From contig JAADHN010000049.1 of the NCBI GenBank assembly GCA_013151865.1, positions 302-64,301 of the forward strand: DNA of 64,000 bases, read 5' to 3'. Shown piece by piece: positions 285 through 46,078 of this stretch; position 1 is the first letter of the stretch; each line of letters opens with the position of its first letter. The DNA is from Kiritimatiellota bacterium (GTDB lineage: Bacteria; Verrucomicrobiota; Lentisphaeria; Oligosphaerales; JAADHN01). Under the pieces are notes generated by a model. The model was not told the origin of the DNA, ran no database searches, and saw only the letters and a list, made by a program, of their open reading frames with translations. A program made the position numbers and the translations under genes.

Positions 285-1526
285 ATGCCCTCTCGGCCGG
301 TCGGGTCATGGAGGTCGGTGATCGATACACACCAGCCATTGTCGCGGGGATTGCGCGCCTGGCGCCTGGGTATTCTCACGGCGGGCCACTTGGTGGTGGA
401 CTTATACGGCGGCCTGTTCGCCCCGCTGTTGCCCGCCATTGCCGCACACACGCACATCGGGCTGGGACGCCTGGCCATTCTGGCCGGAATCAGCGGGGCG
501 GTGGCCAATGGCGTCCAGCCGCCGGCCGGCCTGCTCATGCATCGCTTGCGCAAGCCGGTTTTTCTCTTCCTCGGTCCCGCCCTGGCCGTGTTGATCACCG
601 GGATCGGTTCGACCGGTTCATACTGGGTGATCGCCCTGCTGGTCGTATCGAGCTATGCGGGGATCGGCTTGTTTCATCCGGACGGATTGCTGGCCGCCCA
701 CGGCGTTTCCGGCGATCACGAACACATCGGTGTTCCGGTGTTTCTTTCCGGCGGTTTTTTCGGGTACTCGCTCGGGGCCCTGCTCGGCACGGCCTGGGTG
801 GCCCGTTTCGGGTTCGACAGGTTCGCCCTGCTGGCGGCGCCGGGCGTGATCGTGTTGGCGCTTTTCGCCGTGTCCGGCCTGTTCCGCCTCGATCACGCCG
901 CGGACAGCAACCGCAGCGGAGAAACGGACAATCCGGATGGACGCAGCTTCTGGTTGCTGTTCAGCCTGGGCAGTCTGATCACCATGAGCATCGCGTTGCT
1001 GTATACATTTCTGACCACCCATCTGGTGGCGGTCCTCGGAACCAAGGGATTGGTGGTGGGCGGACGGGCGCTGTTCGTTATCGGCTCGATGAGTGCGCTT
1101 GCCTCGTTCGTGTGGGGATACCTGAGCCGACGTCTTCATCCGTTCGTCCTCATCGGGCTCGGACAGGCGGCCTGCATCCCCGTATTCGTGTTGCTGGTGC
1201 GAGCGCGTTCCCCGGGGGCGGTCCTGCTCCTGTCCACGGCACTCGGACCGCTACTCGGGTTTTACCCGATCGTCGCGACCCTGGCGCGCACGGCGCGGGG
1301 CCTGACCCGCGGGGCGCGCTCCGGCATGATCGTAGGCGGCTGCTGGCTCATCGCGTCACTGCCGGTTTCCCTGTGCGGCTGGCTCATCGACCGCGGCGTC
1401 CCCGTTCAAACACTGCTGCTCGGCTCGATGGTCCCGACGGCCGCGGCCGCCGTTCTGGCCGGCCTGGCCTATGTTCGCGAGAACTCGAACACACGACGGA
1501 ATCCCGTTGCCGGCGAGTCACGGTAG
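285..1526 (+). CDS. MFS exporter, fosmidomycin-resistance (Fsr) type
   Basis: The 413-residue protein is almost entirely hydrophobic, with about twelve membrane segments, the usual size for a major facilitator. The N-terminal segment TAGHLVVDLYGGLFAPLLPAI resembles the H-x3-D-x-Y-x6-LP pattern of the Fsr branch of MFS drug exporters, as does the following IGLGRLAIL stretch. It should sit in the inner membrane and expel a small molecule by proton antiport. The substrate cannot be read from sequence, and antibiotic resistance is only the family's namesake activity. The ATG at 285 follows a weak purine-rich stretch. The gene stands alone, with 217 bases to the next promoter. Confidence 0.8.
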   Translation: MPSRPVGSWRSVIDTHQPLSRGLRAWRLGILTAGHLVVDLYGGLFAPLLPAIAAHTHIGLGRLAILAGISGAVANGVQPPAGLLMHRLRKPVFLFLGPALAVLITGIGSTGSYWVIALLVVSSYAGIGLFHPDGLLAAHGVSGDHEHIGVPVFLSGGFFGYSLGALLGTAWVARFGFDRFALLAAPGVIVLALFAVSGLFRLDHAADSNRSGETDNPDGRSFWLLFSLGSLITMSIALLYTFLTTHLVAVLGTKGLVVGGRALFVIGSMSALASFVWGYLSRRLHPFVLIGLGQAACIPVFVLLVRARSPGAVLLLSTALGPLLGFYPIVATLARTARGLTRGARSGMIVGGCWLIASLPVSLCGWLIDRGVPVQTLLLGSMVPTAAAAVLAGLAYVRENSNTRRNPVAGESR

Positions 1527-1743
1527 TCCCCGGACACGATCCGGTCGATCGCCGGCGGACGGACGAGCCAGGGCCAGGGCGGGGCGCCCAGCTTTCAATG
1601 CGTCCGAGCCGGTCCCGAGGCGCTTGGGGGGATAGGGAAGAGGGAAGGGCGCACGCCGTTTCCACCTTGACGTCCCCCGGCGGCGGTCTTCCCCGTCCGA
1701 CCGCACGGGGCGCGGGAGGTCCGCCAATCCTACCCGGACTCGT

Positions 1744-1771
1744 TTGACATCATCGGAATCTAGTGTAGTAT
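1744..1771 (+). promoter_or_regulatory. Sigma-70 type promoter of the wHTH/tubulin-like operon
   Basis: A perfect -35 box TTGACA (1744-1749) is followed after 16 bases by TAGTAT (1766-1771), a four-of-six -10 box. Transcription would start near 1778. That is downstream of the first possible ATG at 1770, which favours the second ATG at 1827 as the true start of the first gene. Confidence 0.5.
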
Positions 1772-1794
1772 GCTCCGAATCGGAGTTGGAGCAT
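1770..1794 (+). promoter_or_regulatory. Nested inverted repeats, likely autoregulatory operator
   Basis: CTCCGAATCGGAG at 1773-1785 is a palindrome with six-base arms around a central A. It is nested in a wider repeat, ATGCTCC (1770-1776) facing GGAGCAT (1788-1794). A further CTCC follows at 1796-1799. The repeats cover the end of the -10 box and the predicted transcription start, where a bound dimeric winged-helix protein would block RNA polymerase. The first gene product is the obvious candidate ligand, but this is inferred from position only. In TubRZ systems the centromere also lies next to tubR. Confidence 0.45.
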
Positions 1795-1826
1795 TCTCCC
1801 GGATACGGCAACACACGGCGGCGGAC

Positions 1827-2156
1827 ATGGACGGGCTCTTCCAGGAACAGATCGACCACTTGGCCGAACGACATTTCCTCGTGCTCTACTGGGTGGCCCA
1901 CGCCGAGGACCGCCGTATTCGTTACAATCTGACCAACTGTTTCGACGACCTCAAACTCGCCGGCATCACACGAACGAAACAGACCGCCCTGGCAACGGTC
2001 GAGGCCCTGACGGCGCTCCGCTTTATCGAGATCCGCGAGCAGGGGAACCGTAAGAACTTGTATATTACGCAGCATGGCGCCGAGGCGCTCAAGTTACTGG
2101 TCCTTCGCGGCGCGTTTTCGCCGCGCAAGTCCGCATTTCTGGAGGCCCAATTATGA
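1827..2156 (+). CDS. Small winged-helix DNA-binding protein (TubR/MarR-like)
   Basis: The product is 109 residues from the ATG at 1827; an in-frame ATG at 1770 would add 19 residues but lies inside the -10 box. The order is helices, a likely recognition helix in the TRTKQTALATVEALTALRF segment, then a wing with NRKNLYITQHGAEAL, which resembles the wing and final helix of MarR- and PadR-type proteins. The stop overlaps the start of the tubulin-like gene as ATGA, so the two are translationally coupled. Small winged-helix proteins directly upstream of a tubulin-like GTPase are the hallmark of TubR in type III plasmid and phage partition. A MarR-like local repressor unrelated to partition is the alternative. 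It probably binds the palindrome at 1773-1785. Confidence 0.7.
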   Translation: MDGLFQEQIDHLAERHFLVLYWVAHAEDRRIRYNLTNCFDDLKLAGITRTKQTALATVEALTALRFIEIREQGNRKNLYITQHGAEALKLLVLRGAFSPRKSAFLEAQL

Positions 2157-3250
2157 CACTCGGCATCGGCGGAGCCGGCAGTCGTCTGGCGGTCAAACTC
2201 GACCCCGGCGCAACCATCGTCAACGTTTCCCAAATCGAGCTTGAGAAGACCCCTGCCGAGCATCGGATCCTCGCCATGGTCCATGCCGCCCGGGGACAGC
2301 TCCAGGGCTCCCGCAAAGATCCGGCTATCGGTCGGGCCGCGTTTGCCTCGGTCAAAGACGAGCTTCTTGCTCTGTGTCGCAATTCTCTCCTGTTCGCGTC
2401 CACCGGCGGCGGCACCGGAAGCGGCATGACCGCCGCTCTGCTTGAAGAATTGGCCACGCGGGACGACATCCCCCCCACCGAAAAAGCCGTCTTTGCCTTG
2501 TTGCTGCCGCACGCCGAACGGGAATCCGCCGAGTATGTGAACAACACGCTCGACTTCCTGCGCGGCCCCCTGTCCCTGGCCATCGATACCGGAAACACCG
2601 GAAACATCTTCTTGTTTTCCAATCGGCTCAAGTTCGAATCGAGACTGCCCGAGGACGAATACAACACCATGCTGGTGGACTCGCTCCAAGTCTTTCTGGC
2701 CATTCCGGAAAAGTGTGCTCAACTCGATCTGCTCGACGGGCATATCGACCCCGAAGACTTCTCGCTGTTCATGTCTCGCCCGTACTTCAACCATTTCACG
2801 TACTTCGAGTTCGATCCGGCCAAGCCGTTCGGGGAACAGTTGCGGAGTAATCTGAACCCGCTCCTCCTCCTGCCCGACAACCCCATCGAGGCCCTTTTCC
2901 TGCTCGAAGTCCCGGCCGATGCGGACCCCGCGCCGTTTTACGACCTGATCGACTTTTTCGTCGATCAGGAGGTGACTCCCTCTTATACCGTTGTCCGCAA
3001 TTCGCAGCGCGGGAAATACTTCGTCACAGTCTCGCTGCTGTATTCCAGAAAACCCGCCGAATTGGTGGAGGACTTCAGTCGCATCTCCGAAAAGCGCGCC
3101 AGGGCCAAGGTTCGAAAGTCCCTCGAACAACACGTGACTCTGCCCCGGCTCGAGGTGAACCTCGAACGCGAAACGAAACGTGTCGGGAAGGAGAAGGGCG
3201 CCACCGAAGAAGACGTCCTGGCCGTGCTCCAGCGGATCGGGAAGCTCTGA
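2153..3250 (+). CDS. Short tubulin/FtsZ-superfamily GTPase (TubZ-like)
   Basis: The 365-residue protein opens with the nucleotide-binding strand-loop LGIGGAGSRLAVKL (residues 3-16) and carries the tubulin signature GGGTGSG at 85-91. The segment HIDPEDFSLFM at 197-207 aligns with the FtsZ T7 loop NVDFADVRTVM. It keeps both acidic residues (Asp199, Asp202) that complete the GTPase site of the neighbouring subunit, but has His for the usual Asn. The spacing of about 112 residues between the two motifs is close to that in FtsZ. It should bind GTP and form filaments. It has no long linker or FtsZ-type C-terminal tail, ending in a charged helical segment. The upstream partner suggests a TubZ-like role. 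A noncanonical FtsZ-like membrane-remodelling protein is the alternative. It is not the division ftsZ, since no mur or fts genes are near. Confidence 0.8.
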   Translation: MTLGIGGAGSRLAVKLDPGATIVNVSQIELEKTPAEHRILAMVHAARGQLQGSRKDPAIGRAAFASVKDELLALCRNSLLFASTGGGTGSGMTAALLEELATRDDIPPTEKAVFALLLPHAERESAEYVNNTLDFLRGPLSLAIDTGNTGNIFLFSNRLKFESRLPEDEYNTMLVDSLQVFLAIPEKCAQLDLLDGHIDPEDFSLFMSRPYFNHFTYFEFDPAKPFGEQLRSNLNPLLLLPDNPIEALFLLEVPADADPAPFYDLIDFFVDQEVTPSYTVVRNSQRGKYFVTVSLLYSRKPAELVEDFSRISEKRARAKVRKSLEQHVTLPRLEVNLERETKRVGKEKGATEEDVLAVLQRIGKL

Positions 3251-3509
3251 GCGGCATCTGCCTGCCGGCGCGGAGAGGGGTTGGGGCGGTGGTGATTCCC
3301 GGAGGCCCCACCCTGTCCTTCGGCGGAAGCTGCCGTCCTTCCGCCGGGCACACATTGACCCCGAAAGCGGCCCCTATTCACCTCGGAACGGCGCCCGGGG
3401 GGCGGCGGGACCGCCTCGGGCAACACCAGGCCTTTGACAGGGCCGTTTGATCCAACCCGGGTACGCTCCCGGCGAAACCCGACTGCGTCCAACGGATATC
3501 ACCCGAAAA

Positions 3510-4760: not shown

Positions 4761-4994
4761 TCAGCCCACGGCTTTTTCGATCCGATTCGACCGAATACAT
4801 GCGGCGCAGACGTACATGCGGCGACTGCCCTGGGGCGTTTTCACTCGAACACGCTGCACGTTGGGACTGAAGGTACGTTTGACATTCTTCACCACGTGCA
4901 TTCCGATCCCGCCCTTCTTCTTGGCGAGTCCGCGCCGAGTGATGGAACCGCCGGCGTGCTTGCTCTTACCGCAGACTTGGCAAACTCTGCTCAT
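4761..4994 (-). CDS. rpmB: Large ribosomal subunit protein bL28
   Basis: The 77-residue basic protein begins MSRVCQVCGK and ends with CAACIRS, giving the two CxxC pairs of the zinc-binding form of L28. The middle has the typical SITRRGLAKKKGGIGMHV and VKTPQGSRRMYVC stretches. It is a structural component of the 50S subunit. An ATG three codons earlier exists, but the start at 4994 is better placed behind the AGGGA element. It is co-oriented with the tRNA-Lys gene about 100 bases upstream and may share its transcript. Retention of all four cysteines means this is not the zinc-independent paralogue. Confidence 0.95.
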   Translation of the reverse strand: MSRVCQVCGKSKHAGGSITRRGLAKKKGGIGMHVVKNVKRTFSPNVQRVRVKTPQGSRRMYVCAACIRSNRIEKAVG

Positions 4995-5090
4995 GCGTAT
5001 CATCCCTGTCGTACCGTCCCGCCGCCGGGCGGATCGTGCGGTGCGCGTGGCCGGAATCGCCCGAGCGGGCCCGGCGCCGCCGGAGAAAAT

Positions 5091-44224: not shown

Positions 44225-44902
44225 ATGTCGCGAATCGAAGGCGTCATATTCGACATGGACGGCGTTCTGACCGATTCCGAGCCGGTCATCAACGCGGCGG
44301 CCCTTGCGGGACTGCGCGAGTACGGGGTCCGGGCCGAGCCCGAGGATTTCAAGCCGTTCGTGGGCATGGGCGAGGACCGGTACATCGGCGGTGTGGCCGA
44401 GAAGTACGGGGTCCCGTACTCGGTCGAAATGAAGCGCCGGGTTTACGAAATCTACCTCGAAATCCTCCCCTCGATGCATATTGTCTACCCCGGCGTCCTG
44501 GAGTTGCTATGCAAACTCCGTACCGCCCGATACCGGCTCGCCGTGGCCTCCAGTGCGGACCGGGTGAAAGTGGTGGCCAATCTGGAGACCGCCGGCGTGC
44601 CGCTGACTTGGTTCGGTGCGGTGGTGACGGGCGAGGACGTGGCCCGGAAGAAGCCCGACCCGGCCATTTTCCTGGCCGCCGCAGCCAGGCTCGACGTGCA
44701 CGTCGAGCGCGCATGCGTGGTCGAAGATTCGCCGAGCGGCGTCGAGGCCGCGAAGCGGGCCGGGATGCGTTGCGTCGGCGTGGCCCAGACATTCGACCCG
44801 CCCGTTCTCCTGGCCGCAGGCGCCGATTGCGTGCGACCGACAGTGGCCGATATCCGCATCGAAGATCTGGACCACACGGCGCCGCGGAGGGGAGCCGAAT
44901 GA
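44225..44902 (+). CDS. HAD-superfamily sugar-phosphate phosphatase/mutase
   Basis: The 225-residue cytoplasmic protein opens with the nucleophile motif FDMDGVLTDSEP, followed by a helical cap (residues about 15-90). It then has the second motif ASSADR, the lysine in EDVARKKPDPAIF and the acidic fourth motif VVEDSPSGVEAAKRAGM. This is the beta-phosphoglucomutase / 2-deoxyglucose-6-phosphatase subfamily. With glycan-degrading neighbours a hexose phosphate is a fair guess. The ATG at 44225 follows a GAGAG stretch. It lies 84 bases before the UroD-like gene and may be co-transcribed. Confidence 0.9.
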   Translation: MSRIEGVIFDMDGVLTDSEPVINAAALAGLREYGVRAEPEDFKPFVGMGEDRYIGGVAEKYGVPYSVEMKRRVYEIYLEILPSMHIVYPGVLELLCKLRTARYRLAVASSADRVKVVANLETAGVPLTWFGAVVTGEDVARKKPDPAIFLAAAARLDVHVERACVVEDSPSGVEAAKRAGMRCVGVAQTFDPPVLLAAGADCVRPTVADIRIEDLDHTAPRRGAE

Positions 44903-44986
44903 CGGGGGAGGAGGGCCGTTTTAGGGATCGTGCCGGACCGGGGTCGGCGCCTTTGTTCCTTTCGGATTTGCATGGAGAGTGAGCGA

Positions 44987-46078
44987 ATGGATTCGAGAGA
45001 GCGCACATTCCTGACCCTGAACCACGAGGTGCCGGACCGAATCCCCATCGATTTCTGGGCTTCGGCAGGAACGAAGGAGAAGATCCGCTCAGGCTTGCAC
45101 TTGTCTTACGACGGATTCCTCGATGAGTATGGTGTCGATCTGCGTTACATTGCCGGGCCCGGGTATATCGGTCCGCCGCTCGATACCGCCGAACGGGGGA
45201 CAAGCGTGGACATCTGGGGCGTGCCGAGAAAGAGGGTCGCTTTACCCGTTGATAACGCTGTCGAGTACTACGAAGAAGTGAGCGCTGCTCCCCTGTCCGG
45301 TGTCGTCAGTGTCGATGATGTCGAGCGCTACGAGCATTGGCCCTCTCCGGACTGGTTTGATTACAGTGTCATTGCCTCCCAGTGCGACGAGGTGCTGCGT
45401 CGAGATAAGGTCGTGGTGTTCATGGGGGACCGACTGAACCGGATCGCACAGCTCAAGCCCGCCATGTACCTGTGCGGGGGCGAGGCTCTGATGATTCACA
45501 TGGCGACAGCGCCCGCGGTTGCCCATGCGGTGTTCGCCAAGATTCGGAGGTTCTATCTCGAGTACACAACCCGTATTTTGGAAGCTGCCGACGGTCGCAT
45601 TGACATTGTGGTTACGGGAGATGATTTCGGAGCCCAGACCAACCTGCTTGTTTCTCCGAACATGTGGCGCGAGTTCCTGGAGGACGGCTTCAGGCGGTAC
45701 ATCGACCTGATCAAGTCGGCAGGGGCTCGGGTGATGCACCACACCTGCGGGGCCGTTGCGCCGCTCATACCACGTCTGATCGAGAACGGGTTGGATATCC
45801 TTCAATCCCTTCAGCCCGAGGCGGCCGGAATGAGTGGGGAAGCCCTTAAACGCCACTACGGAGACAGGCTCTGTTTCCAGGGCGGGGTTTCCATCCAGCA
45901 AACCATGCCGTATGGGGATGCGGAAGCCATCCGGGGTGAGGTCAGAACGTTGGCGCAAACCCTCGGGCGAGGTGGCGGCTACATCTTTTGCACGGCCCAC
46001 AACATTCAGGCCGATACGTCCCTCGAGAACATTCTCACGCTTCTCAGGGCCTACCATGAATTCGGGGCCTGCCCCTGA
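44987..46078 (+). CDS. UroD-superfamily protein with corrinoid-methyltransferase zinc motif
   Basis: The 363-residue product has the uroporphyrinogen-decarboxylase barrel fold but not its porphyrin-binding arginines. Instead it has HHTCG (His252, Cys254) and a later Cys335 in IFCTAHN, matching the His-x-Cys and distant Cys zinc ligands of MtaA/MtbA-type methyltransferases. VTGDDFGAQTNLLVSP marks the barrel core. It may therefore transfer methyl groups from a cobamide or to a thiol, or act as an O-demethylase component. No corrinoid protein or activator is adjacent. GGAGAG precedes the ATG at 44987. Confidence 0.8.
   Translation: MDSRERTFLTLNHEVPDRIPIDFWASAGTKEKIRSGLHLSYDGFLDEYGVDLRYIAGPGYIGPPLDTAERGTSVDIWGVPRKRVALPVDNAVEYYEEVSAAPLSGVVSVDDVERYEHWPSPDWFDYSVIASQCDEVLRRDKVVVFMGDRLNRIAQLKPAMYLCGGEALMIHMATAPAVAHAVFAKIRRFYLEYTTRILEAADGRIDIVVTGDDFGAQTNLLVSPNMWREFLEDGFRRYIDLIKSAGARVMHHTCGAVAPLIPRLIENGLDILQSLQPEAAGMSGEALKRHYGDRLCFQGGVSIQQTMPYGDAEAIRGEVRTLAQTLGRGGGYIFCTAHNIQADTSLENILTLLRAYHEFGACP

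Follow-up and report, generated by a model that had tools for sequence, protein, structure and literature searches.

A chromosomal tubR-tubZ-like operon of Lentisphaeria with a putative role in segregation or anchoring of replication origins

The closest described systems are the type III TubZRC systems of Bacillus plasmids and phages, which share the gene order tubR-tubZ (PMC5016525, PMC7762940). As yardstick we used plasmid pBM400, with tubR at 44366-44671 and tubZ at 44668-45792. TubZ has been treated as plasmidic in Firmicutes (PMC9871819). Some Clostridia possess chromosomal TubZ together with TubY and without TubR, and a segregation role of these proteins has been doubted (PMC7762940). 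In the literature cited, tubulin-driven bacterial DNA segregation is described only for plasmids and phages, and the chromosomal TubZ cases are without TubR (PMC7762940). Searches of the open PMC literature gave no report of a Lentisphaerae TubZ or tubulin or of a chromosomal TubR/TubZ system; subscription journals were outside the scope of this search.

We analyzed a stretch of 64,000 nucleotides from a Kiritimatiellota bacterium (contig JAADHN010000049.1; hereafter the window), in which a two-gene operon is flanked by genes for an MFS transporter and purM (Table 1). A preliminary description of this DNA had claimed a 109-residue winged-helix protein and a 365-residue tubulin-like protein with ATGA overlap, the latter with GGGTGSG and an FtsZ-type T7 loop, located between an exporter and purM and resembling a chromosomal tubR-tubZ operon. 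All of these claims held: both ORFs were as placed, the T4 glycines and D199/E201/D202 were invariant in 45 relatives, both flanking genes were confirmed, and the tubR-tubZ-like assignment was supported by fold, by pairing and by TubR as the nearest solved fold. The two genes follow each other and overlap by ATGA just as in pBM400, and in both cases a TubR-fold winged helix accompanies a tubulin-superfamily GTPase that starts directly at strand 1. The noted region begins with the promoter region (1744-1826), whose sigma-70-like TTGACA-16-TAGTAT was the sole promoter-like site in 1500-3500 (0.2 expected). An in-frame ATG at 1770 provides an alternative start of the tubR-like ORF and would give 128 aa; the start at 1827 is favoured by the alignment with relatives. 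Downstream of purM, on the minus strand (4761-5003), a small ORF resembles ribosomal protein bL28 (rpmB), as assigned by eye.

Table 1 Features of the tubR-tubZ-like operon in the window
Feature	Position	Strand	Basis or remark
Promoter, TTGACA (1744-1749), 16-bp spacer, TAGTAT (1766-1771)	1744-1771	+	Consensus scan, 10/12 matches
Putative TubR operator, phased AGTGT AGTAT GCT over the -10 hexamer	1762-1774	+	Binding inferred
tubR-like winged-helix ORF, 109 aa	1827-2156	+	ORF call; overlaps tubZ-like ORF by ATGA
Predicted recognition helix, tubR-like residues 51-63	1977-2015	+	AF2 secondary structure
ATGA overlap of tubR-like and tubZ-like ORFs	2153-2156	+	
tubZ-like tubulin-superfamily GTPase ORF, 365 aa	2153-3250	+	ATGA-coupled to tubR; GTPase activity inferred
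T1 loop G-I-G-G-A-G, residues 4-9 (GGAGS = residues 6-10)	2162-2179	+	G4, G6, G7, G9 invariant in 45 homologues
T4 tubulin signature GGGTGSG, residues 85-91	2405-2425	+	GGGTGxG invariant in 45 homologues
T7-like catalytic loop HIDPEDF, residues 197-203	2741-2761	+	D199, E201, D202, F203 invariant in 45 homologues
C-terminal tail with conserved end ...LxRxGKL, residues 337-365	3161-3247	+	pLDDT about 50-67 (low confidence)

The AF2 model of the tubR-like protein reached a pLDDT of 96.1. When it was compared with 350,542 PDB chains using Foldseek, the best match was TubR of pBM400 (4asn; E=9e-4, TM 0.69/0.83), ranking above MarR-type repressors and the centromere-binding protein AspA of pNOB8. 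The same structure was the top match when the sequence profile of the tubR-like family was used in hmmsearch (E=0.0022), and hhalign aligned the family with pBM400 TubR at E=4e-6. Thus, both fold and profile tie the winged-helix protein to TubR specifically. Adjoining the predicted recognition helix, T48-R49-T50-K51-Q52 were invariant in 44 sequences. The TubR winged-helix fold is predicted by the model; the intertwined dimer was not modelled, and DNA binding is inferred.

The model of the tubZ-like protein (pLDDT 87.1) showed the full two-domain core of tubulin and FtsZ, the presence of which had been named beforehand as a test of the assignment. All of the top 50 Foldseek matches were FtsZ and CetZ proteins, FtsZ with E=7e-17, and FtsZ was also the best match in phmmer. 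In the profile search FtsZ came first (3.6e-7), followed by RepX/TubZ (1e-6) over a longer stretch. Alignment of the family with pBM400 TubZ by hhalign gave E=9e-7 over 97 columns; the two have in common an N-(V/F)-S-E-x-(D/E)-L segment. The Pfam Tubulin match to the 365-aa protein (E=3.1e-7, 31.3 of 33 bits) was just below the cut-off, the score rose to 36 bits with neighbours in frame, and 37/45 family members matched. Since FtsZ and CetZ led the fold search and both FtsZ and RepX/TubZ the profile search, the affinity to TubZ or FtsZ remains unresolved. We regard the protein as a deep branch of the tubulins whose partner points to TubR, and the preliminary Bacillus-type reading has to be corrected in this respect, as a closer relationship of the tubulin to Bacillus TubZ than to FtsZ could not be demonstrated.

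The protein shares with FtsZ the tubulin fold, the T4 GGGTGSG and the acidic residues of T7, the latter on the basis of a match of HIDPEDF to the FtsZ NxDxxD loop made by inspection; unlike FtsZ, it is partnered with a TubR-like gene. That it is FtsZ itself was rejected: the FtsZ equivalog model TIGR00065 gave 17.2 bits against a cut-off of 295, and the only other tubulin-superfamily gene in the window's genome (6.2 Mb, 176 contigs) encodes a genuine FtsZ, on contig C43, with a DIPTFQRRG tail. The T1, T4 and T7 loops and the tubulin GTPase core are intact; GTPase activity is inferred. In the C-terminal tail L359 and R361 were invariant and K364 nearly so. By analogy with the tails of plasmid TubZ (PMC5016525, PMC7762940), it possibly binds TubR or the membrane.

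A scan of GTDB species contigs found 11 loci, all in Lentisphaerae/Verrucomicrobia MAGs, with 53-64% identity. When whole genomes were searched, the gene was present in 59/198 genomes of the window's class, and the pair was single-copy in 44 of the 48 genomes of its order. The tubR-like gene lay directly upstream of the tubZ-like gene in 56/56 loci with enough upstream DNA; the two genes, whose adjacency in related genomes had been proposed as a check, were thus never separated, and this arrangement is far from chance. In the TubZ tree every multi-member GTDB-like family grouped together, and in the TubR tree most did. This mostly family-wise grouping agrees with vertical descent, as judged against family labels and not a species tree. 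Another class of the phylum had only sporadic relatives (4 strong matches in 346 genomes, including genome G081), and since these fell inside the window's class in the trees, some horizontal transfer is likely.

The pair (tubRZ) was located on the single 5.7-Mb contig of G083 and on the single 3.9-Mb contig of G081; as each of these genomes is one contig, the operon is chromosomal there. No plasmid, phage or viral relative was found in 72,556 plasmids, 50,697 phages and IMG/VR, using tblastn with two queries and IMG/VR scans with both alignments; in these collections the family thus does not show carriage by plasmid or phage, a trait of type III systems. In contrast to type III TubZRC, tubRZ is chromosomal, origin-proximal and vertically conserved, its tubulin fold is nearest to FtsZ, sequence homology is remote, and a conserved TubY is not adjacent. 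The loci read had no conserved TubY-like third gene next door; TubY is not a strict requirement of type III systems. Neighbours varied widely, including alanyl- or leucyl-tRNA synthetase, pyruvate kinase, transposase and protein kinase genes. Conserved neighbours as functional partners were rejected, as the protein kinase gene was common only to close relatives and the rest varied. This Ser/Thr kinase-like gene follows tubZ in locus L007 (7219-8628), with equivalents in L008, L010, L011 and L109, and might be a mere neighbour or a regulator.

These data bear on two alternatives. According to the first, the operon is what is left of a plasmid or phage partition system that integrated and was domesticated, and it has no present host function. 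The closest characterized relatives are indeed plasmid and phage systems, and the sporadic presence in the class of G081 (4/346) suggests some horizontal transfer. However, tubRZ is kept as a single copy across an order, its catalytic and recognition residues do not vary, the tree groups follow families, and no plasmid, phage or viral-contig relative was found in the collections searched, so that we consider a remnant unlikely. The second alternative, a phage-defence filament system, had been listed as an option in the preliminary description and is favoured only by the general notion that filament-forming systems of bacteria may serve defence. PADLOC gave no match for the tubulin and only two weak CARF-wing matches for the winged helix (E=0.02-0.04), the distribution is core, single-copy and vertical rather than island-like, and no effector gene is conserved next to the pair. 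This option found no support and is very unlikely.

Upstream of tubR, the relatives showed a pronounced repeat structure. Across 44 upstream regions, pairs of ACT/AGT triplets were spaced by 5 bp 281 times, against 23.4 expected (z=60); an excess was likewise seen at 10, 15 and up to 40 bp, and at none of the spacings off multiples of 5 bp. A phased run score of at least 4 was reached by 36/44 of the regions and by 0.1% of shuffles. The array upstream of tubR in genome G206, ACTACACTATACTTAACTTAACTATACTCCACTAAACTGCACTATACTACACTAC, is an example; in L007 the array has two arms, (ACTNN)7 followed by four in-phase AGT units. In the family the array is distinct from the promoter, lies upstream of it and comprises up to 11 units. 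Scanning whole genomes for five exact phased units placed them at tubR in 12 carriers, with few elsewhere, and five-unit runs were absent from all 19 tubRZ-less genomes of the class. This array, centromere-like and essentially confined to the tubRZ locus, is new here. Dispersed chromosomal sites of the parS kind were rejected, as strict scans placed arrays essentially only at tubR. Two genomes, G189 and G282, were exceptions in having dispersed ACTAAAGTCC/AGTGGACTTT repeats on many contigs (e.g. G189:C20:25172, G282:C55:21579). These share the 5-bp phasing of the array and are either additional binding sites or repeats of a family unrelated to it. In G264, a second pentad-like run (C189:4741-4773) was located on a contig other than that of tubRZ.

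At the window's own locus the long array was absent and only a pentad cluster, the putative operator, was kept; the whole 6.2-Mb genome likewise contained no long array, allowing up to one mismatch in six units. Since this genome shows the operator only, the array claim rests on relatives, and a repeat-array centromere (tubC) can be assigned to the family, not to the window's locus. In L007, L008, L011, L016 and L017 the homologous gene likewise had the AGTGTAGTATGCT string of the operator upstream of it, and in several relatives, as in the window, a copy overlapped the -10 box. Type III TubZRC and the tubRZ family are alike in that an array of repeats precedes tubR and the promoter carries an operator. 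That pBM400 tubC is the same type of site was rejected, as no 5-bp ACT phasing was present upstream of pBM400 tubR. Compared with clostridial TubZ/TubY, both have a TubZ-type tubulin on the chromosome, whereas in the tubRZ family TubR is always present and is accompanied by an adjacent array.

The origin was taken from GC skew, using samples of 20 kb, in five near-complete carriers (G081, G046, G192, G209 and G083), in which tubRZ lay 18-57 kb from the interpolated skew minimum. With dense sampling the distance was 1-6% of the half-replicon in G081, G046, G192 and G209; with coarse sampling, in which the dense samples near tubRZ were left out, it was 0.1-2%. The skew of G046 was weak, and G083 was ambiguous (2% dense, 20% coarse), with mixed skew over 2.05-2.7 Mb and dnaA elsewhere. 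G192 and G209 belong to one genus; with coarse sampling, Fisher's test gave p=3e-5 over 4 genera. Sampled skew thus places the operon at the GC-skew minimum (oriC) in four of the five genomes. In G081, tubRZ (1.430 Mb) clusters with dnaA (1.386 Mb) and with three parS-like TGTTCCACGTGGAACA sites (1.365 Mb); here the origin is marked independently by dnaA and the TGTTCCACGTGGAACA sites. The cumulative skew of the window had its minimum near 10 kb, which is compatible with a nearby origin but suggests it only weakly. In G192, contigs C1 (with tubRZ) and C2 (with dnaA and rpoB) each had their own + to - skew pattern, which may reflect two chromosomes or an assembly effect.

An iteron-like array near oriC could also belong to a replication-control module, in which winged helix and array serve initiation or handcuffing, either at the origin or close to it, and the tubulin is accessory. 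The profile match to RepX (E=1e-6) speaks for this, since the PDB lists RepX of pXO1, which is a TubZ, under the name of plasmid replication protein. Against it, no DnaA-box cluster was found within 20 kb around tubRZ, dnaA was present in 8/8 genomes checked, and related families manage without the module. We regard this explanation as unlikely.

Of 29 carriers tested, only three (G081, G248 and G123) had a ParB that scored above the TIGR00180 cut-off. The genomes of the window's order had no ParB above cut-off, and scans of four of them (G000, G083, G189 and G206) revealed no parS-like site. The tubRZ system resembles ParABS in its inferred role and in origin proximity with an adjacent DNA site, and differs in lacking ParA/ParB homology. 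A simple replacement of ParABS by tubRZ was rejected: three carriers keep ParB, and because tubRZ-less sister families of the class are without ParB as well, there is no one-for-one replacement. In G081 the ParB gene (C1, 2711983-2712513) lies about 1.3 Mb from the likely parS cluster at the origin (1364998-1365141).

Our main reading is that the operon encodes an origin-proximal chromosomal TubRZC (type III-like) system for segregation or anchoring, to which we assign a probability of about 0.62. The analysis shows the genes with their folds and motifs, the fixed pairing, conservation in single copy, the array with its 5-bp phasing and, in near-complete genomes, the nearness to the origin. 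By contrast, DNA binding, filaments, GTPase activity and function are inferences. The mechanism is drawn by analogy with plasmid TubZRC (PMC5016525, PMC7762940, PMC9178275). The winged-helix protein would bind phased A(C/G)T-NN pentads, those near the promoter covering the -10 box, so that TubR may repress its own operon. It would also coat the longer array, which lies about 100-600 bp ahead of tubR, as a nucleoprotein filament or ring that would repress the operon as well. The TubR-array complex is proposed to engage the end or the C-terminal tail of GTP-driven tubulin-like filaments, and because the operon adjoins oriC, these might act on sister origins, pulling, separating or anchoring them, in a lineage mostly without ParB and parS.

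Several points weigh against the main reading: the window locus has no long array, tubRZ is not an obligatory substitute of ParB, biochemical and cell data do not exist, the tubulin fold is nearest to FtsZ, the origin derives from sampled skew with G083 uncertain, and a TubY-like gene is missing. A bolder version, in which a TubR-like protein on a pentad centromere near oriC and tubulin filaments do the job of ParABS in Lentisphaeria, seems to us as likely to fail as to hold. Of the options given in the preliminary description, chromosomal positioning gained strong new support from the centromere-like array and origin proximity, and the partition-like role, given there as an inference from the family, is still inferred. 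With the array and origin proximity, a resemblance in gene order becomes a specific hypothesis of chromosome segregation by a tubulin that can be put to the test, and the 5-bp-phased site offers a precise DNA target for direct testing. If true, this would amount to a naturally occurring tubulin 'spindle' acting on a bacterial chromosome, and it could explain DNA segregation in those Verrucomicrobiota that have no ParB.

The third option of the preliminary description, modulation of division, remains as a minor rival. Here the tubulin would be cytoskeletal, with a dedicated autorepressor; the array would serve only as a cooperative operator controlling the amount of tubulin, and the filaments would act not on DNA but in division, shape or membrane organization. 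This is possible, as the predicted fold is closest to FtsZ and CetZ, a promoter-overlapping operator exists, and FtsZ was divergent, truncated or without T4 loop in many carriers, where another tubulin might aid division. However, carriers whose FtsZ is full-length conserve tubRZ just as well, the array of up to 11 units lies upstream and apart from the promoter, the nearest fold of the first protein is TubR, and the operon stays origin-proximal despite changing neighbours. We prefer the segregation or anchoring system. The tubRZ operon may also be relevant to the question of how FtsZ came to be reworked in the PVC group. Degenerate-looking FtsZ proteins were seen in one carrier family (L216-L225; genomes G083, G177, G245, G250, G206, G225, G264, G189, G230 and G282), with 251-304 aa and/or no recognizable GGGTGxG T4 loop; TIGR00065 gave no match at all in G189, G230 and G282. 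Most of them retain a C-terminal peptide of the NLDIPTFQRRG type, and it is possible that they act as pseudo-GTPase adaptors.
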